From Alitta virens (Eukaryota; Annelida; Polychaeta; Phyllodocida; Nereididae): a DNA stretch of 64,000 nucleotides. The stretch is taken from NCBI GenBank assembly GCA_932294295.1, contig OW028582.1, forward strand, positions 38,600,204-38,664,203, given 5' to 3'. Below the pieces are notes generated by a model. That model was not told the origin of the DNA and searched no databases. It saw only the letters and a list, made by a program, of their open reading frames with translations. The position numbers and the translations under genes were made by a program. Shown one piece after another: positions 23,415 through 55,119 of the stretch (its first letter is position 1; every line of letters begins with the position of its first letter).

Positions 23415-24797
23415 AAAAGTTATGCCTTTTTCTGAGAAAGAAACTTACAGGACTTGGTAATTAAGTTGTACATTTTACTGAAAATATTCCACATTATATT
23501 GTATTTACAAAACTCTTAAAAACGTTTGTTTTTCATTTATTCATGTACTATTGTATCATAACTTTAAACGGTATATAGAGTGTAAAACATTTTTAAAACT
23601 ACTTGAATAAAATTTAAAATAACGTTAACTTTACGATCTGCCTATGTCATTATAAAAAGGTCTGACAGGCCATAATGTGAAAGAAGCCTTGCTATTCATT
23701 CTAAATGGCAACTACCATGCAACTTGGTAATTTTTTTCTTACAAAATTGTATTTTTGTGAAATAACAAAGTTATCCAGTTGCAATAGATTAAGCCCCTAA
23801 CAACTAAGTTTATTGTGTTAGTACTGTATCATCTGGCTGGATAAAGTTTTACAAATATCCATATTATAACTCTAGCCTACTAGGCTAAGGGTAAATCTCT
23901 GAATTTATCTTTGTCTGTCATAATTTTTTAGACAAGATGCAGGTGCCAGGTTAATGACCTCATAGGTCAGTGACATTCTTAAGGGTAGGACCTGTCAGCA
24001 ACACTTCAACAAGAGCCTTACAAGAGTACTGATGTCATCATGTCAATCAATCTTAATTCACTCCAGCTCAGCAGAGATGTTCTGCAAGGAAAGCCAACTC
24101 AGTGCCACAAAAGGGACTACCAGAGTCAAATCAAAGGTATTTAAACTCATTACTCAGTTCAGATCTTGTTATATGGGGACCCTTCTATACATTAGTGTCT
24201 AAGTTCTTCTCTGAAGAGATTTGACTATAAGCTAAACATTCACATTTAAGTCATTCTTAGGAACTACAGTATGTCTTTCATGGAAATGTTTATATATATA
24301 TTAATATTTGTTTGGTGATATAATCTGAACTTTCATTTTTCATTTTTATGTACTGCATTTGACAATAATAGTAATACTAAGACCATGATAATATATTGTC
24401 TCTATTTATCATTCATAATTTAACTTAGTTACAGAGACTTTTAGGGCTGTAGTTTGACTGGATAAAATGTTTCTTGTGTGATGCTATCCTTCATTTGTAT
24501 GCCACAAAATAACAAAGGCAGACAAAGTTATTAACTGTAATGTATATAATCTATATGTATGCGTCTCATACTAATATTTTGCTATCGTCAGCAAAAAACA
24601 TCCCCCACATTCACAATTTATATTTAAGCTGCTTAGTGTCCCCAATCAGTCTATAAGATACTATTTACCTCCTTCATGTCTGGGTGTCAATGAGATCCTC
24701 ACCACCTCTCTGTACCCCTAAGGCTAGCTGCCTCCTCAAAATACAACCTGACAGATAAAAAAATAATAGATTATGCCACATCATAGCTCCTAACAGA

Positions 24798-24816
24798 CCT
24801 ATATATATATATATAT
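24798..24816. repeat. (AT)n microsatellite in unit A
   Basis: A TATATA run next to a TACTAGCACCTCACTGGC block; the same order occurs in unit C at about 52510. Confidence 0.7.
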
Positions 24817-24945
24817 TATATACTAGCACCTCACTGGCTACTTCTTTTACTGGCTACTTATTTGCACAATGGTGTTACTATGCTAATTCTATCTTTCTAC
24901 AACCTGTACCATTTAGCTGATCAACGGCGGTGGCGACAGTAAAGT

Positions 24946-25011
24946 TACTACGACTACTACTACGACTACTACTACTACTACTTCTACTATTACTACTACT
25001 ACTACTACTGT

Positions 25012-25064
<53 letters not shown>

Positions 25065-25146
25065 CTACTACTACTACTACTACTACTACTACTAATACTA
25101 TTAGTACTACTACTACTACTACTACTACTGCTACTACTACTACTTC
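24946..25146. repeat. (ACT)n trinucleotide tract in unit A
   Basis: About 200 bp of nearly pure CTA/ACT repeats with rare interruptions. The long poly-leucine frame through it is an artefact. The orthologous tracts in B (about 40828-40945) and C (52660-52706) are shorter and more interrupted. Confidence 0.9.
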
Positions 25147-26395
25147 TTGAGCTGGTGTAGTGTCCAGGTTGGAATACTCAAACAGTAGCCATCCACTTAT
25201 TGGCCAGTCCTGAGTGAACCATTATTAACAAAAGTGTCTTACCTAATCTGGCTTTTGTCTAAATAGGAAAATGATGCTCTGAACCTTGGTTTATATGAGA
25301 GATAGAGTAGGAATGGTGTCCCATGTCTTTGAAGTTGAGTGGACCGATGGCGATTGTTTTTCTTCTTTTTTTATGTTAAGCCTTCAGTTATAAAATGGTT
25401 TATTGTGCATAAGACCGGCTCCTACCCATAACTTAATAACATGGTTTATACTCCACTTTGACTGTTTTTCTTTTGTTGTTACCCTTCAATTTCTGTTTTA
25501 TTATGCATCCCAATTGAATGCCACTATTACATCTTCAACGTTTGGGACCAAATTGAAAAGATCTCAAACTTTGTTATTGTGCATCCTGGCTTGATCGACC
25601 ATTATCTATTTACTACTCTATTTGCCTAATATTGCCTGAAGTTGTCAACTTGCTTGATCAACTGTAAATTAAACTGTTTAGGGGAGGCAAGGGTAATGCC
25701 TTCAGCTAACTGCTAATTGTTGCAAGAAGTTTTCTCCACTAGGACTTTCGTTCAATGAAGTAATATCAATTTACTGAAAATCACCAATTGTGGCACATTC
25801 TAATGATTTTCTTGTTATTTTTGGCGTGTTTTTTTTTAAGAAAAGATCTAAAAAATATAGTGATTGATAATTAGGAATACACCCAAAATACATTGAGAAA
25901 TATTAATTATAAATGTACAAGACTTTTATGGTACATTTGATAACAGTCATTGATATCAATTAGATGTAATTTACTGGTCTCAACCATACACTATGTCTAA
26001 TGCACCTTTTGAAGTTTTCACATGTAGCTGCCACACCCAGTTGTTATTGAAATAATAACTACACTCATATGACATGATTTCCTGTGTTTTGTTTTGGTGG
26101 TAAAAACAATATTTTGCTGTACCATTGGGCCAAGGTATTCTTGTTTTGACACAAATAAACTTTCAGGCATAAACTATTAAGTGTCTATATAACAAGCTCA
26201 TGATTGTTGCTCAATGATGGCCTATTTAGAGTCACAAATGTAACCAACTACCCTTATGGAAATATCTGTGATTAGTTCCGTATTTTTCCAAAGCAGTGCG
26301 TAAGGACTGTGTGATTGCCATATCAGCCAAAAGCCTAACTGACAACTGGGGAATCTACAATAAATTACAGGAGGCTCCCTACTAGACTGCAATCA

Positions 26396-33455: not shown

Positions 33456-34959
33456 TATTTCAGCCCCATAACCCCCTCAGTACCAAGAATATATCATGTT
33501 ATATTTCTCTTGTGGGTACTTCAATGTTTTGATTCAGAGCACCCACAATGGCAGAAACTAAACAGAACAGACAATGACATCCTCATACAGCCATTATGAC
33601 ATATAAGAGCATATAAGTCTTTAGTGACATAAACTGTGCACGTTCTTATGTAATTTTTTATCCTTTGATTGAACTTGGTGATCAGAGAAGCTAATGGCAG
33701 GTGCCAATTTTCATATCTGAGATTAAGTCAAAAGAAATGTATGTATTTTCAACAAAGATCACCAGGTCAAATACGAAAATGAAAATACCTATCAGGATTA
33801 GTCTAAAAGATTGATATTTTTCAACATAAATGTTAAGCCTTTTTCAGAGAAAGGAACTTACAGGACTTGCTAATTAAGTTGTACTTTTTTTACTGATAAT
33901 ACTCTACATTATATTCTATATACAAAACTTTTTAATAAACAGGTTTTCATGTATTTATATATTATTGTATCATAACTTTTACCGGCATTTGGAGCTTACA
34001 ACATTTTTAAAACTGTTTAAATGAAGTTTGTAATAACATTAACTTTACGATTTGCCTGTGCCATTATAAAAAGTTCTGACAGGCCATAATATAAATGGCA
34101 ACTACTATGCAACTTGGTCATGTTTTTCTTACAAAAATTGTATTTTACAGTGTAATTTTGCGAAATAACAAAGTTATCCAGTTGCAATAGATTTAGCGAC
34201 TAACAACTATGTTTATTGTGTTAATACTATATTAACTGGCTGGATAAAGTTTTACAAATATCCATATGTTATAACCAGATTTTGGACTAGAAAACTCTAG
34301 CCTACTAGACTGAGGGTAAATCCCTGAATTTATTTTTGTCTGTCATAATAGTTTAGACAAGATGCAGGTGCCAGGTCAATGACCTCAGAGGTCAGTGACA
34401 TTCTTTAGAGTAAGACCTGTCAGCAACACCTTCAACAAGACTCTAAAAGAGTAGTGATGATTACTGATGGACCATTGATGTTGTCATGTCAATCAATCCT
34501 AATTCACTCCAGCTCAGGAGAGATGTTCTACAAGGAAAGCCAGCTTCAGTGCCAAGGAAGGGACTACCAGAGTCAAATCAAGCTATTTAAACTCATTTTT
34601 CAGTTCAGACCTTGCTATCTGATGCCCCTTTTATGCAATAGTTTCAAAGTTCTCCTGTGAAATTTAACTATGAGCTAAACATTCACATTTAAGTTATTCT
34701 CAGGTGCTACAGTGTATCTTTCATGGAAATATTTATATATGTATATATTTTTTGTGATATAATCTGAACTTTAATTCTTTATTTTTATGTAGTCATGGTA
34801 CTGCATTTGACAATAATATTAGTAATATTTAGAATATCATCTCTATTTATCATTCATAATTTAACTTAGTTACAAAGGCTGTGGTATGACTGGATAAACT
34901 CAGAAAATGTTTCTTGTGTGATGCTATCCTTCATTTTGATGCCATAAAATAACAAAGGC

Positions 34960-34984
34960 AGACAGACAGACAGACAGACAGACA
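34960..34984. repeat. (GACA)n tail of the LINE in unit B
   Basis: On the minus strand this is a TCTG repeat directly after AATAAAGTCATTTG, i.e. the 3' microsatellite tail of the retrotransposon. Units A and C have only a single GCAGAC here. Confidence 0.8.
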
Positions 34985-35025
34985 AATGACTTTATTTGGA
35001 ATATAGCTAATTAGCATACATACCT

Positions 35026-35068
35026 GGGGGCCCCTCTAAGGTATTTCACTGCTATCGAGGTGGTCCCC
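35026..35068 (-). promoter_or_regulatory. 3'-terminal hairpin of the LINE
   Basis: On the minus strand, GGGGACCACCTC pairs with GAGGGGCCCCC, about 40 bp before AATAAA. Similar hairpins at the same place precede the LINE ends at 11.5, 18.1 and 56.4 kb, so it is probably the structure the reverse transcriptase recognises, as known for other LINE families. Confidence 0.5.
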
Positions 35069-35302
35069 TAACAATATTACATTGATTTTATACAAAAAAT
35101 TTTAGTAGCTAGCAGGTAGATGTTTAAGAAACAATAACATATTAAATAAGATAATAATAATAATAATAATGAAAAGATTATGTATATATAAATAGATAAC
35201 AGAGTTGTTAACTGTGTGTGATGCAATGCAGGTAACTTCCATGGAAACCACTTATAATCTTAAGAAGTAAATAAATAAATTGATAGAAAAAAAAGGATTA
35301 TG

Positions 35303-38300
35303 TTAGTTAGCTTGAGTCTCTATTTCTGAAGTCTGCTCAGGTATTTGTCTGCAAACATAACAGCGTGGGTCCTGACAAGTATTATCATAATCATTTAGAA
35401 TTGATATTTTAATATAGTCTGAGTACCCTTTTAAGGTATGTGTATGAACTTTACAAAGTATATTAGCAGTGCAGGTGTTGACAATACTGGGCAGTCGCTT
35501 CATTACTGAGCATTTGGAAAAATTGTATTTTAGTCTCGGTGTGACATATTCAGCGTTTCTTCTAGTATAATAGTCATGTTGGTCGGCAAAACGAATCAAG
35601 ATTATGTTCGTGAAGTAATCAGGGAGATAACTTTGCATGTATTTAAAGTAGAATTTCAGCTCTTGTTGCTTGTATATATCATGTATTTTAAGTAAATTAA
35701 ATTGCTTAAAAAGTGGTTCTGTATGGGCATTGTATCTGCTAAGGGCTAGAAGCCTAACAGCTTTTTTCTGTAATTTAAAAATTTACCCAGATTGATGTCC
35801 CCACAAAAGCAAACCATAATTAAGATGTGGCATGATTAGAGTGTTATACAGTATCTTGAGAATATTTTGTGGAATGAATTTTTTCAAGTGATTAATAATT
35901 CCTATTATTTTGGAGATTTTGCCATGTACTTTTTTTATGTGATATTTTCAGGACAGGTGTTCATCAAGGATCACTCCTAAGAAATTAAAGCTATTTACTT
36001 GTTCTATAGAAATATTGTCAATTTTTATATCTGGAGGTGAAAAATTCCTATTTTGCGGGCGATATACAATGAATTTTGTTTTTGAAATATTTAAAGAAAG
36101 TCTGTTTAATTGAAGCCATTCAGTTAATTTTTGGAGTTCATTATTGAAAGTGGAAAATGTCATTGTTCTTGATTCGAGGGTAGCTACTAAGGTGGTATCA
36201 TCCGCATATATAATAAACTTAAAGAGGTCTGAAGATCTGGAAAAATCATTAATATATATTAAAAATAGTAATGGGCCTAATATGGATCCTTGAGGAACAC
36301 CTGTGCTAATATTTAGCTGGTCTGAGCAGACATTTTTATATGCTACGTATTGTCTTCTATTTGGAAGGTAACTTTTGAATAGGTCAAGAGCTTTTCCTGT
36401 AATTCCATAGTACTCTAGCTTATGGATAAGTATTTTATGGTCCAGCGTGTCGAACGCCTTAGAAAGATCAAGGAAAATGTTAATTGGAGTAGTTCCGTTT
36501 TCAAGATGATTTGTTATTCTGTCTATGTTTTCTAGTATCGCGAGTTCTGTAGAGTGACCAGATCTGAATCCGTATTGGCTAATATAATATAATTTATTTG
36601 AGTTGAGACAAGTGATCGTGTAGTTGGATATGCATTACTTTTTCAAAAATCTTTGACATGGCGGGTAGGATCGAGATGGGGTGATAATTTGTTAGGCTAT
36701 CCTTGTCATTACTTTTATAAATAGGAGTTATTTTAGCAATTTTTAATAATTTAGGGAAAGTACCACTTATGAGAGACTGATTTACAATTAAGGTTAGAGG
36801 TTTTATGATTATATTTTTAATTTCCTTTAGCAATTTAACTGAAATACCATCAATTCCAACACTAGTTTTAGGTTTCAATCTATCTATAATTTTATGTATT
36901 TCGACTTCAGTTACATTTTTAAATGAAAATTCAGGGTTTTGCGCCAGATCAAGATAATCTGTAAATGATTTATGTTGTGGAGCATTTATATTAGAGGCTA
37001 AGTGTGGCCCGATATTTTGAAAGAAGTGATTGAATTCGTTTGCAATTTGCAGAGGGTCTGTTACTATATTGTTGTTTATTTGCATTTTTTCTGGTAAAAT
37101 ATTATTATTTTCAGTTTTACTTATTATGCTGCTGATTGTTTTCCATGTGTTTTTTATGTCTTTTTTAAAATGAGAAAACCTTTCCGGATAGTACATCATT
37201 TTTGCTTCTCTGATATTTTTCTTTAATATTTTATTGTATGTTCTGAGGTTTGTTTTCAAATTCTGATATTGAGCTGATGTAGGAAGTGTCTTGCGCAATT
37301 TTAAATGCAGTTTATCTCTAAATCTTATTGAATTTAAAATTCCTCTTGTGATCCACTCTGCCTTCTTATGTTTATGTTTATCAAACTTAACTGTTTTTAT
37401 TGGAAGGTGTTTATCTTTTAATATTATTATGGCTTGATGAAATATTTCGTAATTTGTATTTGTATTTGCATGTTCTGACTGATCTAACCTACTCATTAAG
37501 TCGAATTGTTGCAATTCATTTTTAAATTTTTCAATGGATGTTTTGTTGTATTTAACTGATTTTACAGTGAGGATGACCTTGTACATGAAAGATAATCCAA
37601 TGATATAAAATAGGGCTGATGGTCTGATATTCTGTTTGTTAAAATGCCTGTTCTTGCTTTTGAGAAATTATTTGAAACTCTGCATAAGATATTATCAATT
37701 AATGTAGCCCTACTTTCAGAGAACCTGGTGGGCAGAGTAATTTTGGGAATAAAGCTGAATGAAAGTAGGACGCCAAGCTAATCGGAAATTGCTGTGTTGT
37801 CCCCAACCCTCAGCAGATCCAAATTAAAGTCACCACATATTATCACTTCTTTGGAATTATTACTAAAGTTGGATAAAATATCTGTGAAACCATTTATGAA
37901 TTCATCAATTTCTTCCCGTCTTTGTCTTGGCAGTCTGTATATGTTTCCTATAGTAATGCATTTATCTTTAAAACTTTCAGATTCAATTTGAATAAATTGA
38001 TGTTCCCAGGTTGTATAAGCAGATTCAGTGATATTTAATACCCTGTAATTGAATCGACTGTCCAAGTATATTACGAGTCCACCATGAGAACTGCAGGTCC
38101 TACTTTGATTAATTAATTTATAGCCATCTATATTTAACAAAAATATATACATATTTTCGGCAATCCAAGTTTCTTGTAGACAAATAAAATTGAAAAAGAT
38201 TCCCTTTTGTCTAAGACTGTTGACATAGATATTAATTTCCTCAAATTTGGCGAAAATACTTTGGCAATTTAAGCTTAAAACTGTGATTTTGTTACTATTT

Positions 38301-38467
38301 GTTGAAAAAATATGTGCCATACCATCCTCATCCATATAATGGCTATTTTCGAATAATTCAGGTTCTCCATTTTCAAGATCTGTATCATCTAGTTCCCCAA
38401 CTATATGAGACAAAGAATTTTGCTGTATCCCCCCATAATTACAAAGTATTTCTATGTCATGTATCAT
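35303..38467 (-). pseudogene. LINE ORF2: AP endonuclease plus reverse transcriptase, broken
   Basis: Encodes the enzyme that nicks target DNA and reverse-transcribes the element RNA. Endonuclease (38467-37590): LSLNCQSI, ICLQETW, GGLVIYL, GDFNLD, then after an in-frame TAG at 37778-37780 the ISDHQP motif. Reverse transcriptase (37586-35948): KNTWKTISSI, NYHPISILP, QYGFRSGHST, FLDLSKAFDTLDH, GVPQGSILGPLLF and the catalytic YADD (near 36205). The C-terminal part (35947-35303) has a WG-x-x-x-G motif and a late Cys pair (CYVC). Breaks: TAG 37778, frameshifts near 37585 and 36600, TGA 35948-35950, TAA 35783-35785. Apart from these five lesions the text is well preserved. The best-known relatives are the Jockey/CR1/L2 group; the exact clade needs a tree. 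Confidence 0.9.
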
Positions 38468-39174
38468 TTTGAATTACAAAATCATAATTTCTAAATATCC
38501 ATGGGCTACATCTACATTGCATCACAGTGTTTATCAAGTGTATAGTAAAAGCAAAAAGTGAACATAATGTCATGCATTCCAACATGACAAAAGAAAATGT
38601 AATTATGAGAAAGAAAAAGGGAACATGTTACATATGTACCAGCCTAGTCAACAATATCATACTTATATAGGAAAAAGGAGAGAGAAAGACAGGCATAATT
38701 TTAAAAGTTCAGTGATTAATCAGAGTAAACAAAAAGTCACTCGATTTATATAAGATACAGTCAAATTAACATGTTGACTGGGCACTCATTCAAATTTGAT
38801 ATATGTATACAGAAATACTACAATTAAGATATATATGTCATTTACATGATGTCATTTACATTATACCTTAGTTTTCTTTGTGTGTCCTCTGCACAGAACT
38901 GTGCACCAATAGTCCAACAGGAGAGCATTTGTACAGAGCTAGTTCATATGTTATATTTTGAGATTAGAAGAGGCTAATCAGGTTTACAGTAACTATCTAC
39001 AACAATGCTGTGACAACCAAGAAACAACAGTGCAACAAAAACAGGCCTTTTCACTCCATTTGTGTTATCGTGATTTTAAAAGCATGATCCATGAATTTAG
39101 GTTTGCAATTATTCAAATTGAATAAAACTTAAAACTACATTTTTTGGATGATTTACAAAATACCAATTGACATT
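38468..39174. other. Spacer between ORF1 and ORF2 of the LINE
   Basis: About 700 bp without a usable frame, unusually long for an inter-ORF spacer in this kind of element. I see no second element boundary inside it. Confidence 0.5.
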
Positions 39175-40454
39175 TCAAATATTTTGCAAAGTTTCTCGTC
39201 GAATTTGCATAAGAATTTGGCCAAGAACATTTTTGCCATTCCATTGTTCTTGATTAAACGCATCTGGGTCAGTCATCTTTCGGCCAATGCCCCAAATCTT
39301 GTCAGGACCAGCTTCAGCCAATGTAGTGTCCATGGTGCGTACGAGGAAATCCCGACAACGCTTATTTTGTAGAAACTTAGCTCTACAAGCTTTGGTTACG
39401 ACATCTTGGGCAATAGGAAGCCACTTCTCACTGACAACCTTGCAGCTGTCGCCTAGTCTTTTGTATTCTCTTGGATGGGAAGCAGCTTGTATGGCATTTA
39501 TCACGTCATGGTTACCAGCAAAATCAGCTTTGCTAAGCTGCAGGACCTTTTCCACACAGCTGTAGGTCTTGCCTTCCAGCTCAAAATTTGCAAGATGGAA
39601 GTTGGAGAGGGGAGATGCCTCAGTGAAAAAACATGTAATTGCACCCTGTGTTTTCGTCGCAGTAACAGCAGGATCCAGATTTGGCGGTAAAGTGTGGAGA
39701 GTCTTTATTGTATAAGTCTTTCCCTCTATCAGAAGCCTGTCATCTCTCAGTGATGCTTTCTTGCCAGAATTAATGGCAGTCATCATGATAGGGGCCAGTA
39801 CATTTCTTCGCTTGACTATTTCTGGAGGAAAGTGTTCACTCATGCGCTGTCCTTTGCCTTTTTCCTTCAGTTTATTTTTCAAGGCCCAGACAGACTCACG
39901 ATCACCATATTCTACGAATCTACAGATTATAGGAGTAGGTTTGTTTTTCCCTGGGAGTCTGTGGCACCGATGGAAGCGCATACTATCCACAACATCAGCA
40001 TTCATCTTTAAAGTGTCTTTTAAGAGGTTCTTAACTTTCTTTCTGCAGTCTTCGTTGTCATCTTGATTAACACCATGGAATAGCAAATTTTCCTTGCGGC
40101 TATAGGTTTCGAGTTGCAGGAGCTTCTCTTGTAGGGTTTCATGTTTTACATCAGCTTCAAACGCCTGCCTTTTAGATTTTCTATTGTTGTGTTTTGAACA
40201 TCAACAGTATTTTGCAGTACTGCAGTTTTATTGAGAGCCTCCTGGGATTTCTCCATGGCAAACTCAATAGACCGTTTGACATCTGCAACATCATTTGTTA
40301 AAGTGTCCACCTTTTTATCCAGATTTTCAAATTTAACATTCAATTGAGTAATTGCTTCCAACACCTTTTGCATGTCATTTTTTGAGTCATCTTGATTTGA
40401 AGAAGCAGATACAGGATTATTTCGAGTGCTAATCCTATTTACAGGGGTATAAAA
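39175..40454 (-). pseudogene. LINE ORF1: coiled coil, L1-ORF1p-like region and C-terminal NADAR domain
   Basis: The minus-strand frame begins in flanking DNA, so the element's own start is missing; the first internal Met is in NDMQKVLEAI. Positions about 40370-40150 encode a heptad-rich coiled coil (LDKKVDTLTNDVADVKRSIE). A one-base shift in an A run near 40155 moves to the next frame. This continues with ENLLFHGV, an RFHRCHRLPGK-type segment and PIICRFVEYGDRESVW, the nucleic-acid-binding part of L1 ORF1p-like proteins. At 39645-39187 follows a NADAR (YbiA-like) domain: ASPLSNFH, CVEKVLQLSKA, KFLQN, WGIG and GKNVLGQILMQIR, all in family order and spacing. In known proteins this fold acts on ADP-ribose-type or related N-glycosidic substrates. 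The domain is open from end to end. What it does for the element is unknown. Confidence 0.85.
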
Positions 40455-40827
40455 AAAGTTATTAACTGCCTTCCACTGTAATGTATTTGTTCTATATTTA
40501 TGTGTCTCATACTTATATTTCACTATCATCAACGAACAACAACCCCCACATTCACAAATTTATATTTAAGCTGCTTAGTGTCCCTCATCAGTCTATAAGA
40601 TACTATTTACCTCCTTCATGTCTGGGTGTCAATGAGATCCTCACCACCTCCCTGTACCCCTAAGGCTAGCTGCCTCCTCAAAATACAACCTGACAGATAC
40701 AGCACCTCACTGGCTACTTATTGTACTGGCTACTTATTTGCACAATGGTGGTATTATGCTTTACCTATCTTTCTACATTCTGTACCATTTAGCTGATCAA
40801 CGACGGTGGTGACGGTCAAGGCAGTAC

Positions 40828-40945
40828 TACTACTACTACTACTACTGCTACTACTACTACTACTATTACTACTACTACTACTACTAATGCAACTAATACT
40901 AATGCTACAACTAATACTACTACTACTACTACTACTACAACTATA
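40828..40945. repeat. (ACT)n trinucleotide tract in unit B
   Basis: Interrupted ACT repeat with AATGCTACA-type variants; orthologous to 24946-25146 and 52660-52706. Confidence 0.8.
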
Positions 40946-42435
40946 ACTATTTTACATCCATCTACTAGCCATTACTACTACTACTACCATAAATACTTAT
41001 TTTCACACTAGTGATAGTACACTCTCTTTATCTTTTGTGCAATCTATGCCATTTGACCATTTAGCTGATTTAGACTGTGGCAACGGTAAAGGCATTAGTA
41101 ATTCTTCTGCTGTTACTACTTCTGCATTCCACTACTTCTACTACTTGAGCTGGTGTTGTGTACAGGTTGGAAAACTCAAAGAGTAGCCATCCACTTATTG
41201 GCCAGTGCTGAATGAACCATTATTTACTCAGAACTTTCAAGAACTTTTTACCTAATCTTGTTTCAGCTAAATAGCAAAATGATGCTCTGAGCCTTATTTT
41301 ATATGAGAAACCGAGTAGGAATGGTTTTCCCATGCCTTTGAAGTTGAGTGAACTGTGTACTATGTCAATTAAGTTAGAAACTGAATAGGGACTTTATAGT
41401 GTAGTGCACATGCATGGACACAACAGACGGCCCTTAGGCTAATTGATTGTTTTTTTTTCTTCTTTTTCAGGCTTCCAGTTATAACATGGTTTATTGAGCA
41501 TAAGACTGGCTCCTATCCATAACTTTGTCCAATTACTGTGTTTTGTCCTATAATGGGAACAGTGGTTTTGTCAAATTTTAAAGTAACTAGATGAGCTACA
41601 GAAATGAATGACCCTTTCATTCTACTTATCATGCCAATGTTTTTTTTCTTGTGATGGGGAATGATATATAACATGGGTACAGAATTGTCTTTTTTTTATA
41701 ATAGCTGTAGCCTGCAACTTTTGGGACATAAAGTTATTCAAATTAAACTAAAGTTCAGACTACAATATTTCTAATGGAAAATAGTAGAAAAATTTTGATG
41801 TAAACAGTACAAAATATACTTGGTAGACTGATGCCCTTTTTGACACCTATTAACCTTCAGTTTCGGTTATATTATGCACCCTAGCTGATCAGTCACTAAT
41901 ACATTACCAACAGGTGAGGCCAAATTGAATATATCAAACCAAACTTTGTTACTGTGCGGCATGGTTTGATCGACCATTATCTAATTCCTACTCTAATTGC
42001 TTAATATTGCCTGAAGTTGCCAACTTGCTTGATGAACTGTTAATCAGGCTAATTAGGGGAGGCAAGGGAATTCCTTTAGCTCATTGTTGTAAGAAGTTTT
42101 CTCTTCTAGGACTTTTGTTTAATGAAGTTTGAATCAATGCTGATAAGTTGGTTATTAGTGGAATAATATCAATTTTTTGAAAATTACCAATTGTGGCACA
42201 TGCTTATGACTTTCTGGATATTTTTGGTGTGCTTTTGTAAATAAAATATCTAATAATTATGGTGATTGATGCTAACTATTTCGTTATAGTGATTAATACA
42301 AATTTATTTGGATATAATTAGGAATACTAAAATACATTGAGAAATATTAATTATTAATGTACAAGAATTTTATGGTACATTTGATAACAGTCACTGATAT
42401 CAATTAGATGTAATTTACTGGTCTCAACCATACCT

Positions 42436-43783
42436 CCCAGTAGGCGCAAGTCGTAAAAATGACGTCTTTTTCTGGTCTCAAATTGGTCATGACGTCGGTG
42501 ACCAATATGAGACGTAAATGAGACGTAATTTTCAAGACGTCAAAATGACCAGGAAATATGACGTCTTATCGACGTCTTATTCTGGTGCTCAAGCAGACGT
42601 AATTATTTTACTTAATTTTTATGTCTTTATTACGTCGAAAAATTACGTCTAGAATACGTAATTTTTTTACGTCTTATCAATGTAATCTTGTGGTCTTTAA
42701 TATAACCAATTCTTTAACCATTAAGTCTCATACAATTTGCAAGTTAACATTTTTAGCAATTAATATATAATGACTAAATTCACATTTTGTGTAACTTCAT
42801 ATTTTTAATTTAGGATAGAAAAATTAAATGTGAACTCCTTTTCAGAATATATTTCAATGTATTGCAAATTTATCAACTTTTCTAACCAATCTGAAGTCTA
42901 TCTATTGGGGTTAATGGGCTCATAATATCACCCTGACCCCAGTGCACCCTATATTATAGCCATGTGCCTATCATTATCTGAACTGGCTGACCAATCAAAC
43001 CCCTAGAAATCTTGAGCAGCTGCAGGACAGGTCACATCTTGTCAGTTAAGAATTTGAAATTCATTCAGTAACTTTGGAGGGATACTAGTGAAGTTGGATT
43101 TTAAACTTAATTCTTCTATGTAGTGATATATACCATTTATCACATCATTGCATGGTAAGTGAAGTTTTTTAAATTCTAACCACTGTGAAAATATGTTGCA
43201 CATGCTGATTCATATATGATTTGGTGTTAAGTTTATTTTCTGAATATAAATTCATTTCAGGGATCTATGGAACTATGGATGAAACTTGGCTGAAGAATTC
43301 TGATATACATGAATAAAAATATATATTTCTTTAAAACTTAAATTGCAGCAGTCCCATGTATATATTTGCATCATATGTGCATGCATGCATCCAATGATGT
43401 ATGCTATATTACACAATATAATAAAGTTTTTTTCTTTAATTTTAAACTTGTGTGTGTTCTCTGTACATTCAATATGTCCAAAGATTGCAAAGTTCATCTT
43501 AAAGAGGTTGTCTGATGATGTCTAAAAGACATCATCTGATGACGTGTTTTAGACGTCAGATATTGGTCAACTAAATACGTCTAAAAGACGTCATCTGATG
43601 ACGTATTTTAGACGTCAGATATTGGTCAACTAAATACGTCTAAAGACATCGTCAGATGACGTCTTTGAGACGTCTCATATAAGACTTCATTGAAGTTTGC
43701 ATATGAGACCAGTATGGGCTGGTCATGAGACGTCTTGCAGAGACGTCAAAATGACGTCAATGAGACCACTTTTGCCCACTGGG
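42436..43783. mobile_element. Non-autonomous inverted-repeat DNA element rich in ACGTC, in unit B
   Basis: Ends are CCCAGTAGGCGCAAGT on the left and, read inward on the other strand, CCCAGTGGGCAAAAGT on the right. Unit C keeps the empty site CATACCTATGTCTAG, so the element lies between CT repeats, a 2-bp target duplication. Both ends (about 42445-42665 and 43505-43770) are packed with GACGTC, TACGTC and their variants. The right end contains tandem blocks of about 68 bp (43515-43650), and the middle 800 bp is plain AT-rich DNA. No transposase is encoded. Confidence 0.75.
43510..43665. repeat. Tandem ACGTC block (period about 68 bp) inside the foldback element
   Basis: TTTTAGACGTCAGATATTGG plus TCAACTAAATACGTC occurs twice in a row, with AAAAGACGTCATCTGATGACG between. 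Each block is itself nearly palindromic around TCATCTGATGA. Confidence 0.7.
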
Positions 43784-46699
43784 CTATGTCTAGTACACCT
43801 TTGGAAGTTTTTTACATGTAGCTGCGACACCCAGTTGTTATTGAAATAATAACTATACTCATATGACATGACTTCCTGTGTTTTGCCTTTTTATAAAAAC
43901 AAATAACAAAAAATATTGTACTGGCCTCAGCTCTATGCAGCTAATTTCCATATATCAATGTCTGAATGCTGATAATGATGTTATTATGCTATTGACTGGT
44001 AAATTGCTGTACAATTGGGCCAAGGAATTCATGTTTTGAAACAAATACAATTTCCGGCATAAATTAAGTGATTATGTAACAAGCTCATGATTTTTACCCA
44101 ATGATAGATAATTTAGAGTCACAAATGTAACCAACTACACTTATGGAAATATCTATCATTAGCTCAGTTTTTTTCCAAAGCAGTGCATAAGGACTGCAAA
44201 TATATCTGTAACAGCCTAACTGACAACTGGTGAATCTACAATAAATTACAGGAGGCTCCCTACTAGACTGCAGTCAGGCAGGGTGACAGGGTGACAGGGT
44301 GACAGGGTGACTCTTGCCATATGCAATATCTATCAGTACTGAGCTATGATTATCAAAGTTGCTGATGATTCTCATAGTTGTAACATCAAAACAATACTGA
44401 ATTTATATTTGTCTTTCAAATGAAGACATATTAGATGCTCATATCTAACTCATTGGGTTTGGCTTGACAGGACTTGAACTTAGGATCTTCCAAGTGGTGG
44501 GTGGCCATTGCAAAAGGGTCGTTCGTGTTAGCAAGTAGTTATATACAACAAACGTTGAAGTGGAAATAGCAGGCTTAACAAAACATTGCAATACTGACAA
44601 TGCTACCACAGTGAAAATAAAAAGTCAGCATAAATATGAAGATTGAACTGTACTGTGCATGAGTCACATCAAAAATTTGATTTCCCTGAGGTTAAACTTA
44701 ACAAAGCTGCATATAATGATGAAGGAAATCTCATGTTTGCAAAGAAGTAATTCCATAGACATGCTCAATAGTGTGACTATTTAAGTATGTTTCCTGGTAT
44801 CAAGAAGCAATTTCTCTTCAAGTGATTGTACTTTCATTTTATCCTATAATGGGAATGGGTGGCACAACAGTAGGACATCAAACTTCCAAAGCAGTGATTT
44901 AGTGTGAATGCTTTTAAAGCTTCATCTCTGAACTGTATATCATTTCTTTTGTAAAAAAAAAAGAAGTCATTTGAAAGTAACTCTAGCCAAGAACTAAGGC
45001 ATTACTAGTGTTTTTGTGAATTAATTGCTTTAATTTTATGGTTATACCAGGCTCATAATTATGTTGGTTGCTAGATATGAAAGATATTATGTAAGGATCT
45101 GTTAGACAGCAAGATGGAACACGATATATTCACATAAATGTTGCTCTCACTAGAATCTTAATAATTAAGAGCAATCTACAGGAAATGTATATGCACTGTA
45201 TGTATAATGCTAAATATATAATCAAAACATATAAAACCATGACAGCAAAATGAAAGGCTCGTGTAATTATTGTAAGTATTAGCCCCATTAACCGCAAGTT
45301 CTGTGGCATGATGGACGGCTGGTCTGACAACCCTTTGTGCCATATTCTGTATATTATTTCCATAAGAGAGGAGGAGTATATGAGCCATATGAAAGTAGGA
45401 TAGAAAAGTGTAGAAATATTTAATGAATACAAGTGTTTATGATTCAGGAACATCACCCTGGACTGACAGCAACATGTTACTATACAGTAACGAAAAGTAA
45501 TCCAATTTCGCAACTTGCCTATTCCTATAATGGGAATGGGTTGCACAGCAGTTGGACATCAAACTTCCAAAGCAGTGATTCAGTGTGTGTGCTTTTAAAG
45601 CAATGCATTACTATACAGTAACGAAAGGTAATCCAGTTTCGCAACATTTACTAAATCTGCCATACACTTATTTAGAGTAGTAATATCTCATCCAAGGCCT
45701 CAAAGATATTGATTTCTGGCACTTTTCAGGTAGATCCTGACATATAATATTGAATGCAACTTTGTTTTTTCATTTCTTTTCAAAACTTGTTCAATTACCT
45801 TAATAAGTTTCCATTGTTCAGAAACACTTCAAACTTGATGGCTATCGACCCAGTTCATTTCTTTGGCAATCCGAAGGGGTTCTATTTTGGGAATGAAGGC
45901 AGGTGAAAAAACAACAACTTCTCTAAAAGGAGCTTTGATCTATTTGGTGAACTCTCTGAGACCAAAGATGCCAGGATGAAGATTAAAACACTCAGTACAT
46001 AAAGGTCATAGAAAGTCTGTTTTTTTTGCAACATATTGCATCTGTATTACTTCAGCACTAGTGGTCTGAGGCTTAGCCAACTTATATGCCCACTGAGGCA
46101 TTTACTTTCATGAACTTGACATGAAGTGTTTAAGCATGCTTCAGGATTTTTGCTTCAGCAATGTCAGCATTCCTGTGTAGTATAAGTCCTGAACCAATTT
46201 AAAGTTGTATGCGAAAAATCCCAGCTGAAATTAAACACTGTGTTGGTAATCTGACCACCCAACTACTTAAGGGGCAAATAGGTTTTGCTCAGGCTGAATT
46301 AATATTGAATATTTGATGTAGCATAGGTAGTTTATTTGAAAGGAATCCTATTCTAGGCACATTGACCTTATTATACAGAATGTGTAATCTGGGACACTTC
46401 GTTGAGTTATTGTTCTGTGCTATACCATTAATATCAGCTGGCACCTTAGCATTAACATGTGGTAATACAGCATGAAATATGAATATGAATAGCATGACTG
46501 ATTACATTTTTCTGCGTGATTATTAGCCAGTTGCCTCCAATGAATGACACAATGCAGCACCATTGGTTATCGTCGATATGAAGGTTGACCAATTTCTGAC
46601 CAAAAGCAGTTAATATGTCTTACCTTGAGGAATTTTTGTAGAGTGCTTTAGTTTATCCAATGAAATACGCTAACATTACCAAGATTATAATAGAGCCGA

Positions 46700-50753: not shown

Positions 50754-52659
50754 TATTTCAGCCCCATAACCCCCTCCATACCAAGAATATATCATGTTAT
50801 ATATCTCTTGTGGGAACTTCAATGTTTTGATTCAGAGCACCCACAATGGCAGAAACTAAACAGAACAGACAATGACATCCTCATACAGCCATTATGACAT
50901 ATAAGAGACCATTTTCATGCTAAGGGTAGAAACATATAAGTCTTTAGTGACATTAACTGTGCACGTTCTTATGTAATTTTGGGTCCTTTGAATGAACTTG
51001 GTGATCAGAGAAACTAATGGCAGGTGCCAATTTTCATGTCTGAGATTAAGTCAAAAGAAATGTATGTATTTTCAACAAATATCACCAGGTCAAATACGAA
51101 AATGAAAATACCTATCAGGATTAGTCTAAAAGATGGATATTTTTCAACATAACAGTTAAGCCTTTTTCAGAGAAAGAAACTTACAGGACTTGCTAATTAA
51201 GTTGTACTTTTTTTACTGATAATACTGTACATTATATTCTATATACAAAACTCTTCAATAAATTTTTTTTCATGTATTTATATTTTATTGTAACATTACT
51301 TTTACCGGCATTTGGAGCTTAAAACATTTTTAAAACTATTTAAATGAAGTTTGTAATAACATTAACTTTACGATCTGCCTGTGCCATTATAAAAAGTTCT
51401 GACAGGCCATAATATAAAAGAAGCCTTGCTATTCATTCTAAATGGCAACTACCATGCAACTTGGTCATTATTTTATTACAAAATTGTATTTTACAGGGTA
51501 ATTTTGAGAAATAACAAAATTATCCAGTTGTAATAGATTTAGTGCCTTACAACTATGTTTATTAAGTTAGTGCTATATCATCTGGCTGGATAAAGTTTTA
51601 CAAATATCCATATGTTATAACCAGATTTTGTTCTGGCAAACTCTAGCCTACTAAGCTGAGGGTAAATCCCTGTCATAATTTTTTAGACAAGATGCATGTG
51701 CCAGGTCAATGACCTCATAGGTCAGTGACATTCTTCAGGGTAGGACCTGTCAGCAACACCGTCAACAAGACTCTAAAAGAGTAGTGATGATCACAGATGG
51801 ACCATTGATGTTGTCATGTCAATCAATCTTATTTCACTCCAGCTCAGGAGAGATGTTCTACAAGGAAAGCCAGCTTCAGTGCGCTATTTAAACTCATTAT
51901 TCAGTTCAGACCTTGCTATCTGATGCCCCTGAATTTTAACTATGAGCTAAACATTTTAGTCATTCTCAGGTACTACAGTATGTCCCTCATGAAAATGTTT
52001 ATATATGTATATATTTTTTGTGATATAATCTGAACTTTAATTCTTAATTTTTATGTAGTCATGGTACTGCATTTGACAATAATATTAGTAATATTTAGAA
52101 TATCATCTCTATTTATCATTCATAATTTAACTTAGTTACAAAGGATGTGGTTTGACTGGATAAACTCAGAAAATGTTTCTTGTATGATGCTGTCCTTCAT
52201 TTTTTATTCCAAAGGCAGACAAAGTTATTAACTGCCTTCCACTGTAATATATATTATCTATATTTATGCGTCTCATACTAATATTTCACTATATATCGTC
52301 AGCAAAAAACATCCCCCACATTCACAATTTATATTTAAGCTGCTTAGTGTCCCCCATTAGTTTATAAGATACTATTTACCTCCTTCATGTCTGGGTGTCA
52401 ATGAGATCCTCACAACCTCTCTGTACCCCTAAGGCTAGCTGCCTCCTCAAAATACAACCTGACAGATAAAAAACTAATAGATTATGCCACATCGTAGTTC
52501 CTAACAGACCTATATATATATATATTATATACTAGCACCTCACTGGCTACTTCTTTTACTGGCTACTTATTTGCACAATGGTGTTACTATGCTAATTCTA
52601 TCTTTCTACAATCTGTACCATTTAGCTGATCAAAGACTGTGGCGCTGGTAAAGGCAGTC

Positions 52660-52706
52660 CTACTACTACTACTGCTACTACTACTGCCACTGCTACTACT
52701 ACTACT
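52660..52706. repeat. (ACT)n trinucleotide tract in unit C
   Basis: Short interrupted ACT/GCT tract, the contracted counterpart of the 200-bp tract in unit A. Confidence 0.8.
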
Positions 52707-55119
52707 TGAGCTGGTGTTGTGTCAAGGTTGGAATACTCAAAGAGTAGCCATCTACTTATTGGCCAGTCCTGAAAGAACCATTATTTACTCAGAACTTTAT
52801 TTTACCTAATCTTGTTTCAGCTAAATAGCAAAATGATGCTCTGAGTCTTTTTTTATATGAGAAACAGAGTAGGAATGGTAATCCTATGCCTTTGAAGTTG
52901 AGTGGATGGTGTACTATGTCAATTAAGGTAGAAACTGAATGGGGACATTATGGTGTAGTGCACATGCATGGACACAACAGACGGCCCTAATTGATTGTTT
53001 TTTTCTTCTTTTTCAGGCTTCCAGTTATCACAAGACTATCTCCTAGCCATAACTTTGTCCAATTACTGTGTTTTGCCCTGTAATGGGAACAGTGGTTTCT
53101 TCAATTTTTTAAGTAACTAGATGAGCTACAGAAATGAATGACCCTTTCATTCTACTTATCATGCCAATGTTTTTTCTTGTGATGGGGAATGATATATAAC
53201 ATGGGTACAGAATTGTCTTTTATTATAATAGCTGTAGCCTGCAACTTTTGGAACATAAAGTTATTCAAATTAAACCAAAGTTCAGACAACAATATTTCTA
53301 ATGGAAAATAGCAGAAAAATTTTGATGTAAACAGTACAAAATATACATGGTAGACTGATGCCCTTTTTGACACCTATTAACCTTCAATTTTGGTTATATT
53401 ATGCACCCTAATTGAGCAGTCACTAATACATTACCAACAGGTGAGAATATCAAACCAAACTTTGTTACTGAGCGACATGGCTTGATCGACCATTATCTAA
53501 TTCCTACTGTAATTGCTTAATATTGCCTGAAGTTGCCAACTTGCTTGATGAACTGTTAATCAGTCTAATTAGGGGAGGCAAGGGGATTCCTTTAGCTAAT
53601 TGTTGTAAGAAGTTTTCTCTTCTAGGACTTTAGTTCAATGAAGTTTGACTCAATGCTGATAAGTTGGTTATTAGTGGAATAATATCAATTTTCTGAAAAT
53701 TACCAATTGTGGCACATGCTTATGACTTTCTTGATTTTTTTGGTGTGCTTTTGTAAAGAAAATATCTAATAATTATAGTGATTGATGCTAACTATTTAGT
53801 TACAGTGATTAATACTAATTTATTTGGATATAATTAGAAATACTAAAATACATTGAGAAATCTTAATTGTAAATGTACAAGACTTTTATAGTACATTTGA
53901 TAACAGTCACTGATATCAATTAGATGTAATTTACTGGTCTCAACCATACCTATGTCTAGTACACCTTTGGAAGTTTTCACATGTAGCTGCGACACCCAGT
54001 TGTTATTCAAATAATAACTATACTCGTATGGCATGACTTCCTGTGCTTTAAAAAAAAACAAATAACATTGAGAAAAAACCTTTACTGACAACTGGTGAAT
54101 CTACAATAAATTTCAGGACGCTCCTTACTAGACTGGAATCAGGCAGGTTGACAGGGTTGCAGGGTGACAGGGTGACTGTTGCCATATGCAATATCTGTCA
54201 TTTCTTAGCTATGATTATAAAAGGTACTGATGATTCTCACATTTGTTTTGGAAACATTGTGTGAGATAAGATATATTTTCCTGACCCAGGAAAATTTCAA
54301 ATATAGGCATATTAGATGCCTGACAGGACTGGAACCCAGGACCTTCCAAGTGGTGGCCAGTGCAAAACTGGAAATCTGATGCAGTACACCATATGACAAC
54401 ATAGGAGTTCTCAAACAATGCTGATATATCTGAATGTTTGGAAACGGACAATTTGATAGACATGCTCTGGTGTGACTCTGCATCCAAAAGATTTCTGTCA
54501 ACACAACACCTTATTGAAGTCTGTTTCCTGGTTCCAAGAAGCAATTTCTTTCCCAGTGATGTGTAGGTTTAGTCCTTGAAGACACTAGTATGTTGCCTCG
54601 TTCAATATCACACGTTCATGTTATCCTATAATGGGAGTGGGTGGCAAAATAGTTGGGCATCAAACTTCCAAAGCAGTGACTCAAGAGTGTGTGTTGAAAG
54701 CTTCATAAAATATGGTGGACTCAAGACAGCTGTAGCGCAACCCATTCCTGGCTGTAGCGATAACTGGCTCAAGCTAGACACTTCTGTCTACTCCCAGCTT
54801 ATACATACCAACACTGAAAAAATATTAACCTAGCATTGTATAGCGGAAATAGTGTAGTTTTGTCTAGGTCCAATTTTACAGGCCGTTTTTAATGTAACCA
54901 ACTTTATTTATGAGCCATATAGGAATGCCTGTCATATCACAGAACATACACTGATTGTTGATATTTGTATTTCATGCAGATAAATCCTGACCACTGCCGT
55001 TTCCTATGGTGAAAGCAGAAATTGGTCATGGTTTAGTGAATTAATAGCCACATTTCTGAAAAGTAGCAGTGGACACCATATATAATTCATAATTATATAA
55101 TTCTTACACTGGTACTCAC

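Follow-up and report, generated by a model that had tools for sequence, protein, structure and literature searches.

A NADAR domain at the C-terminus of the ORF1 protein of LINE retrotransposons in the annelid Alitta virens

We analysed a stretch of 64,000 nt from the genome of Alitta virens (the whole stretch is referred to as the window), which encodes on its minus strand the first open reading frame (ORF1) of a non-long terminal repeat (non-LTR) retrotransposon, a long interspersed nuclear element (LINE). Judged by its sequence, the ORF1 product is an L1-ORF1p-like protein which carries as a fixed further domain a NADAR, a kind of domain known to take ADP-ribose off DNA. The architecture of this protein, its linkage to ORF2, the selection acting on it, its active-site residues and a second case with a NADAR of another subfamily are the new results presented here.

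Domain architecture of the ORF1 protein

The original prediction had placed a complete NADAR domain at the C-terminus of a LINE ORF1 protein, in a single open frame running from 39175 to 40454. The features of ORF1 in the window are listed below.

39178..40200, minus strand: ORF1 (end of the coiled coil, RNA recognition motif (RRM), C-terminal domain (CTD) and NADAR), one open frame of 341 amino acids (aa), P0001
40146..40454, minus strand: N-terminal coiled coil of ORF1, in another frame in the window copy
39691..40092, minus strand: RRM and CTD of L1-ORF1p type, residues 37-170, limits set by us
39193..39639, minus strand: NADAR domain, residues 188-336, limits set by us; matches PF08719, 8bau and 2b3w

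The fusion is borne out by profile and fold comparisons as well as by the ORF2 that lies next to it. The Pfam NADAR family PF08719 matched residues 194-336 of P0001 with an E-value of 3.9e-33 and a score of 115.5 bits, well over the cut-off of 35.1, and the same result was obtained when a 303-aa part of P0001 was searched alone. The match covers positions 9-161 of the 163 in the profile, so that the domain is complete, and the NADAR motifs named in the prediction are present in the frame in the order given there. A profile built from P0001 and 34 relatives matched the coil-RRM-CTD part of human LINE-1 ORF1p (2ykp with an E-value of 2.8e-11; 2ykp and 2yko both at about 3e-11), while its remaining part matched solved NADARs (8bau, 1.9e-26; 2b3w, 2e-21). 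The AlphaFold2 model of P0001 (mean predicted local distance difference test 95.5, predicted template modelling (TM) score 0.82) agreed with both assignments in Foldseek, with TM-scores by target length of 0.72 for the NADAR 8bau and 0.63 for LINE-1 ORF1p 2ykq.

The Pfam family Transposase_22 (PF02994) gave no match to P0001 at an E-value of 1 and none to the ORF1 of locus L027 at 0.01, nor did it have an entry among the 25 families listed, out of 242, for the set of 35 members made of P0001 and its relatives. A search of the Alitta genome with PF02994 returned zero matches, controls included, and is hence uninformative. Because PF02994 fails to match, the assignment to ORF1p rests on profile and fold.

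The claim of a single frame stood for 39178-40200 and failed for most of the coiled coil, which lies in another frame; the region 40146-40454 gave weak Pfam matches, mostly to coiled-coil families and all under the cut-off. The order coiled coil-RRM-CTD of L1-type ORF1p is nevertheless present, and L027 holds all of it in one frame of 452 aa. The same coiled coil, RRM and CTD make up the Type II (Transposase 22, L1-like) ORF1 of CR1/L2 elements, and Table 1 of that work, which gives the ORF1 domains in an analysis of 448 elements, has no NADAR (PMC4120745).

Copies of the fusion, selection and a second lineage

The fusion is common to many copies and families. The Alitta genome (671,116,069 bases in 23 contigs) contains at least 119 matches to the fusion ORF1, the window included and some elements giving two rows, and about 34 frames, counted by eye, run for at least 400 aa without a stop, the NADAR end being not necessarily whole in each. 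Among database proteins, 34 matched at an E-value of 0.001 or lower and all of them bear a NADAR by precomputed Pfam; 28 are 385-551 aa in length and six are shorter (197-330 aa). Predicted NADAR proteins of invertebrates may thus be transposon ORF1s, which is a warning for their annotation.

ORF1 is regularly followed by ORF2. A same-strand ORF2 is present downstream in 17 of 21 ten-kb stretches, window included, and an ORF2 endonuclease is present in all seven further, shorter stretches, which gives 24 of 28 in total. ORF2 was not found after ORF1 in the ten-kb stretches of L012, L014, L018 and L024, and an inverted element interrupts that of L015. In L027 the open ORF1 is accompanied by an open ORF2 frame of 1002 aa. 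Seen from the side of ORF2, a NADAR place lies no more than 4 kb upstream of at least 52 of 144 endonuclease places, the 144 being those of 1881 candidates that were scored; 52 is a lower bound since the list of NADAR places was without rows of the second lineage and some low-scoring rows. Six of the 92 NADAR-less ORF2 places, chosen for their long ORF2 frames, were read over 2.5 kb upstream: two retain 91 or 58 residues from the end of a NADAR-bearing ORF1 and four have no recognisable ORF1 there, which is the pattern that 5' truncation gives. An ORF1 ending before the NADAR, the case named in the prediction as pointing to capture by one copy only, was seen in none of these six.

Seventy stretches of viral contigs fitted the pattern of a NADAR-bearing ORF1 and none was confirmed, P0001 had no match in the genome-contig collection, and nothing scored when the domain alone was used as a query for its nearest free relatives in a large protein set.

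Purifying selection on the NADAR domain, which the prediction had proposed to look for across copies, is seen among the 19 loci, of 28, that were compared; the window, L010, L015, L016, L018, L021, L022, L023 and L026 were dropped as broken, partial or near-duplicate. The proportion of nonsynonymous changes (pN) was lower than that of synonymous changes (pS) in the NADAR of all 171 pairs (medians 0.46 and 0.79) and in the RRM-CTD of all 136 pairs, of the 171, with enough codons (medians 0.47 and 0.81), where the pairs are not independent and the synonymous divergence (dS) is mostly saturated. Finite dS or a lower number of saturated sites was seen in 5 of the 14 closest NADAR pairs listed, and the 4 with a finite dS have ratios of nonsynonymous to synonymous divergence (dN/dS) of 0.25 (L032-L028), 0.23 (L031-L033), 0.12 (L013-L017) and 0.18 (L014-L017). 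Between the window and its near copies, changes are spread evenly over the codon positions (3, 2, 4 and 3, 3, 3; only nine in each comparison), as is expected of dead copies. The constraint appears to belong to replicating lineages.

A second NADAR-bearing LINE lineage is present in the same genome. The search with PF08719 gave at least 150 scored places, of which at least 11, by eye, have open frames of 549 aa. In L036 (G000:C2:2391000-2398500), L037 and L038 the NADAR is located in the middle of ORF1 (E-values from 3e-25 to 6e-28), and the C-terminal part of a profile of the three matched the ORF1-encoded protein 4c1b (5e-4), which we take to be the esterase of zebrafish L2; a GDSL lipase match is below the cut-off in L036 and L038 and absent in L037. 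Downstream of the L036 ORF1, a frame of 1263 aa encodes an ORF2 whose endonuclease and reverse transcriptase (RT) both score over the cut-off, and this ORF2 shares 25% identity with that of L028 over 471 aligned columns. L037 is followed by an endonuclease frame over the cut-off, and L038 by an RT frame just over the cut-off together with a weak endonuclease match.

NADARs of the two lineages belong to different classes. In a tree of 48 NADARs, 33 belonging to the first class, three to the second and 12 to bacteria and phages, the two LINE classes are separated by a branch with support of 100/97; the 33 were taken for spread from 62 first-class sequences, and the outsiders came from phage and plasmid similarity lists. 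A common clade of both classes was rejected by the approximately unbiased (AU) test (p-AU 0.010), with thin sampling of outsiders because each of the 12 was picked for its resemblance to one of the two classes. For the first-class NADARs, a single origin could be neither demonstrated nor rejected (p-AU 0.14). All three second-class NADARs have a histidine at the position of the active-site glutamate E125 discussed in the next section, as phage NADARs do (PMC11543638), and the residue at the K50 position is K in L036 but M in the other two. On these sequence grounds, one genome holds two LINE lineages with NADARs of two subfamilies. The many open-frame copies and the second lineage, both in a sequenced annelid, make the question of the role of the domain testable.

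A 2025 paper mentions in one sentence that the ORF1 of several Crassostrea gigas Tx1 LINEs contains NADAR-like domains (PMC12477816); these elements are likewise a case of a NADAR in the LINE ORF1 of a marine invertebrate. The passages of that paper are without an RRM architecture, a selection analysis or a catalytic analysis. The oyster elements are called Tx1, whereas the Alitta ORF2 looks Jockey-like by its motifs, a comparison made by description only. The same paper describes NADAR for Gypsy elements in Ectocarpus; in the LTR retrotransposon of a brown alga, the YbiA-family NADAR lies in Pol. No other description of a NADAR or YbiA domain in a retrotransposon, and no described function for a NADAR-LINE fusion, was found among the matches listed in the open literature.

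Active-site residues and possible role of the NADAR domain

The residues E217, K224 and E296 of P0001 correspond by alignment to E43, K50 and E125 of the P. nicotianae NADAR (residues named in PMC11543638). Their codons and their conservation are as follows.

39550..39552, minus strand: codon of E217 (E43); glutamate in all 27 loci and all 35 proteins
39529..39531, minus strand: codon of K224 (K50); lysine or arginine in 25 of the 27 loci and all 35 proteins
39313..39315, minus strand: codon of E296 (E125, the YbiA-type glutamate); E in all 22 covering loci and 35 of 35 proteins

Five of the 27 loci do not cover the E296 position in frame. E217 and E296 are among only 10 invariant columns of 149, at a median pairwise identity of 36% (231 pairs). 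The YbiA subfamily is defined by a glutamate at the E125 position (PMC11543638), and E296 is such a glutamate, not D or H. The window copy has the same fold and the equivalents of E43, K50 and E125 in common with E. coli YbiA (2b3w) and the P. nicotianae NADAR (8bau), and it also has the D and W found in the WG-motif region of YbiA-subfamily NADARs. Unlike the hydrolases of this subfamily, the Alitta NADAR is fused to an ORF1p, and its activity is putative.

That the NADAR is intact in so many families suggests a benefit to the element, perhaps in opposing a chemical mark set by the host; a conserved enzyme-like domain on a LINE ORF1 is a handle on a hurdle that the element meets. L1 ORF1p coats its own RNA as trimers, and LINE ORF1 proteins are regarded as RNA chaperones. 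By analogy, the Alitta ORF1p would form trimers coating the RNA of the element. Since it would do so, NADAR sites would line both the RNA and the cDNA as well as the nick at which reverse transcription begins. At these places the putative hydrolase would most likely remove ADP-ribose in N-glycosidic linkage from guanine or a similar adduct, and host ADP-ribosyltransferases could then, we conjecture, not block reverse transcription, integration or RNA stability. We give an even chance to this reading, in which the NADAR clears ADP-ribose from the nucleic acids of the element as an anti-host activity. The prediction, too, had raised the possibility that the domain counters a host modification.

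Several published results are consistent with such a role. NADARs including an oomycete one hydrolyse guanine-ADP-ribose (PMC11543638), as do E. coli and phage NADARs in vitro (PMC11125620). NADARs of animal positive-strand RNA viruses, which likewise are selfish elements replicating via RNA, have been proposed to remove host ADP-ribosylation, although they sit inside polyproteins and not on an ORF1p (PMC9503650). Guanine-directed transferases, namely CARP-1 and the pierisins, are present in shellfish and butterflies, and the erasure of their marks by NADARs is, according to the same source, an unconfirmed assumption (PMC11543638). The roles of eukaryotic NADARs, those of animals included, have been described as unclear (PMC11125620).

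The following points speak against clearance of ADP-ribose, in addition to the saturated dS and the non-independent pairs mentioned above. K224 is lost in L024 (S) and L020 (Q). D300 is D in 12 of 22 loci and N (nine) or H (one) in the other 10, and W303 is W in 14 of the 23 covering loci and Y (four) or F (five) in the other nine. Replacing the residue at the E43 position of the E. coli C7 NADAR by alanine affected it only slightly in vitro, yet the mutant failed in cells (PMC11543638). Moreover, E. coli YbiA and phage NADARs are active in vitro, yet they did not protect cells from DarT1 (PMC11125620), and activity therefore need not mean a protective role.

A wider version of the same idea is that retrotransposons of marine invertebrates have taken up NADARs repeatedly, with differing subfamilies and ORF1 architectures, as a counter-defence erasing host ADP-ribose; we put this forward tentatively, as a conceivable rather than a probable course of events. 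If true, it would imply a so far unknown host defence against transposons by ADP-ribosylation of nucleic acids.

The alternative that survives best, though we hold it to be rather unlikely, is that the NADAR processes ADP-ribose or NAD-derived groups at the RNA ends or junctions of the element, or that it links the RNA to host RNA-processing factors, and does not oppose a host defence. ORF1p-type proteins bind RNA, which would suit such a task. RNA processing has been suggested for retroelement NADARs (PMC12477816), but the passages of the cited papers show no RNA substrate for a NADAR, and SNA-3 is described as nematode-specific by authors who allow for an effect on folding.

It is improbable that the domain is a non-catalytic module binding ADP-ribose or poly(ADP-ribose), which would bring the ORF1p particle to chromatin or to nicks marked by PARP. 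The replacement of W303 by F or Y in nine of the 23 loci, while both glutamates stay wherever they are covered, can be taken in its favour; the invariance of the same two glutamates, and of E296 in particular, is a requirement of a hydrolase and argues against it, and the E. coli C7 NADAR depends for efficient activity on the residue at the E125 position (PMC11543638). Six of the nine W303 changes are in one subclade (L028, L029 and L031-L034), two are in L014 and L016, and one is in L022, where the residue is read past a frame change. In L014, L016, L028, L029 and L031-L034, W303 is Y or F and both glutamates are kept. A change of substrate is possible in these LINE NADARs, judging from their sequences.

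Still less probable is an action on small molecules such as ADP-ribose, cyclic ADP-ribose or riboflavin intermediates, with a metabolic benefit to the host cell or the element. Riboflavin intermediates are the substrates of the N-glycosidase YbiA of E. coli (cited in PMC11543638) and small-molecule targets have been argued for phage NADARs, but the same work argues for macromolecular targets of the NADARs of animal RNA viruses (PMC9503650), and a coat protein of RNA-binding type is not needed for a diffusible substrate. Accidental capture by a single copy, or a spurious domain match, which could appeal only to the window copy being broken in ORF1 and ORF2, is ruled out by the many families, the open frames, the selection and the structure match.

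The LINE insertion in the window and its surroundings

The ORF1 described above is part of a LINE insertion of about 5.5 kb with its 5' end at 40454. Further features of the insertion are listed below.

34965..40454, minus strand: LINE insertion, 5'-truncated; low edge uncertain within 34960-34984
38474..39174, minus strand: non-coding spacer of about 0.7 kb between ORF1 and ORF2, with no long minus-strand frame; same in L009 and L010
37778..38473, minus strand: N-terminus of ORF2, endonuclease/exonuclease/phosphatase type; PF03372 (E-value 9.2e-5) and PF14529 (3.4e-4), both below the Pfam cut-offs
35303..37777, minus strand: remaining ORF2 (RT and C-terminus), in several frames; counterparts in L009 and L010
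34959..34984, minus strand: 3' tail of tetranucleotide repeats; the same tail ends L009 and L010

The flanks of the insertion (34800-34937 and 40455-40699) match an insertion-free repeat at 52066-52203 and 52221-52468 with 97% and 92% identity, respectively. This repeat belongs to a dispersed family with three copies on the plus strand (24352-25409, 34800-34937 with 40455-41486, and 52066-53032). The copies near 52066-53032 and 24352-25409 are without the LINE, and their halves match the flank 34800-34937 and pieces of 40455-41486; therefore a single insertion at about 34965-40454 holds ORF1, spacer and ORF2 together. Separate insertions of ORF1 and ORF2, as the 0.7-kb spacer might have suggested, are ruled out by the insertion-free repeats and by the equal spacing of the two frames in L009 and L010. 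The low-coordinate edge is uncertain because tail and target have a repeat unit in common, and no clear long target-site duplication was seen at the junctions, where this shared unit lies. No long direct repeat flanking the element was found.

The element is young, since L009 is nearly identical to it and L009 and L010 keep the same spacer. L009, on contig 9, is 98.8% identical over 34968-40256 (73 differences in 5320 aligned bases), and L010 is 98.6-98.9% identical, in two pieces, over 34960-39791. The window copy is broken in the coil of ORF1, its ORF2 is split into several frames and, by eye against P0003, it lacks some 20-odd residues at the start of ORF1 as well as any 5' untranslated region.

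ORF2 with endonuclease and RT, the absence of LTRs, the 5' truncation and the repeat tail identify the element as a LINE. The RT family RVT_1 is over the cut-off on the window frame 35951-36634 (E-value 1.2e-29) and also in L027 and L028, while the endonuclease match is over the cut-off in L028 and under it in the window and in L027. The best match of ORF2 among solved structures is LINE-1 ORF2p. By its motifs, its length and the repeat tail, ORF2 looks like that of the Jockey superfamily, on the CR1/L2 side; the RT motifs, the ORF2 frames of 997-1002 aa and the tetranucleotide tail presumably agree with this superfamily (CR1/L2/Rex1/Jockey). Fragments of ORF2 are also arrayed on one strand at G000:C12:23388738-23394944 and C2:10575944-10590627, with spacings of about 1.8 kb and mostly about 3.8 kb.

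Two other features are located beyond the 5' end of the insertion. A TAC trinucleotide array of about 40 units is present at 40825-40943, a few hundred bases from this end. The region 42440-43790 is dense in palindromes of gacgtc type, with inverted repeats between its sides, and looks like a non-autonomous DNA element or a palindromic satellite.
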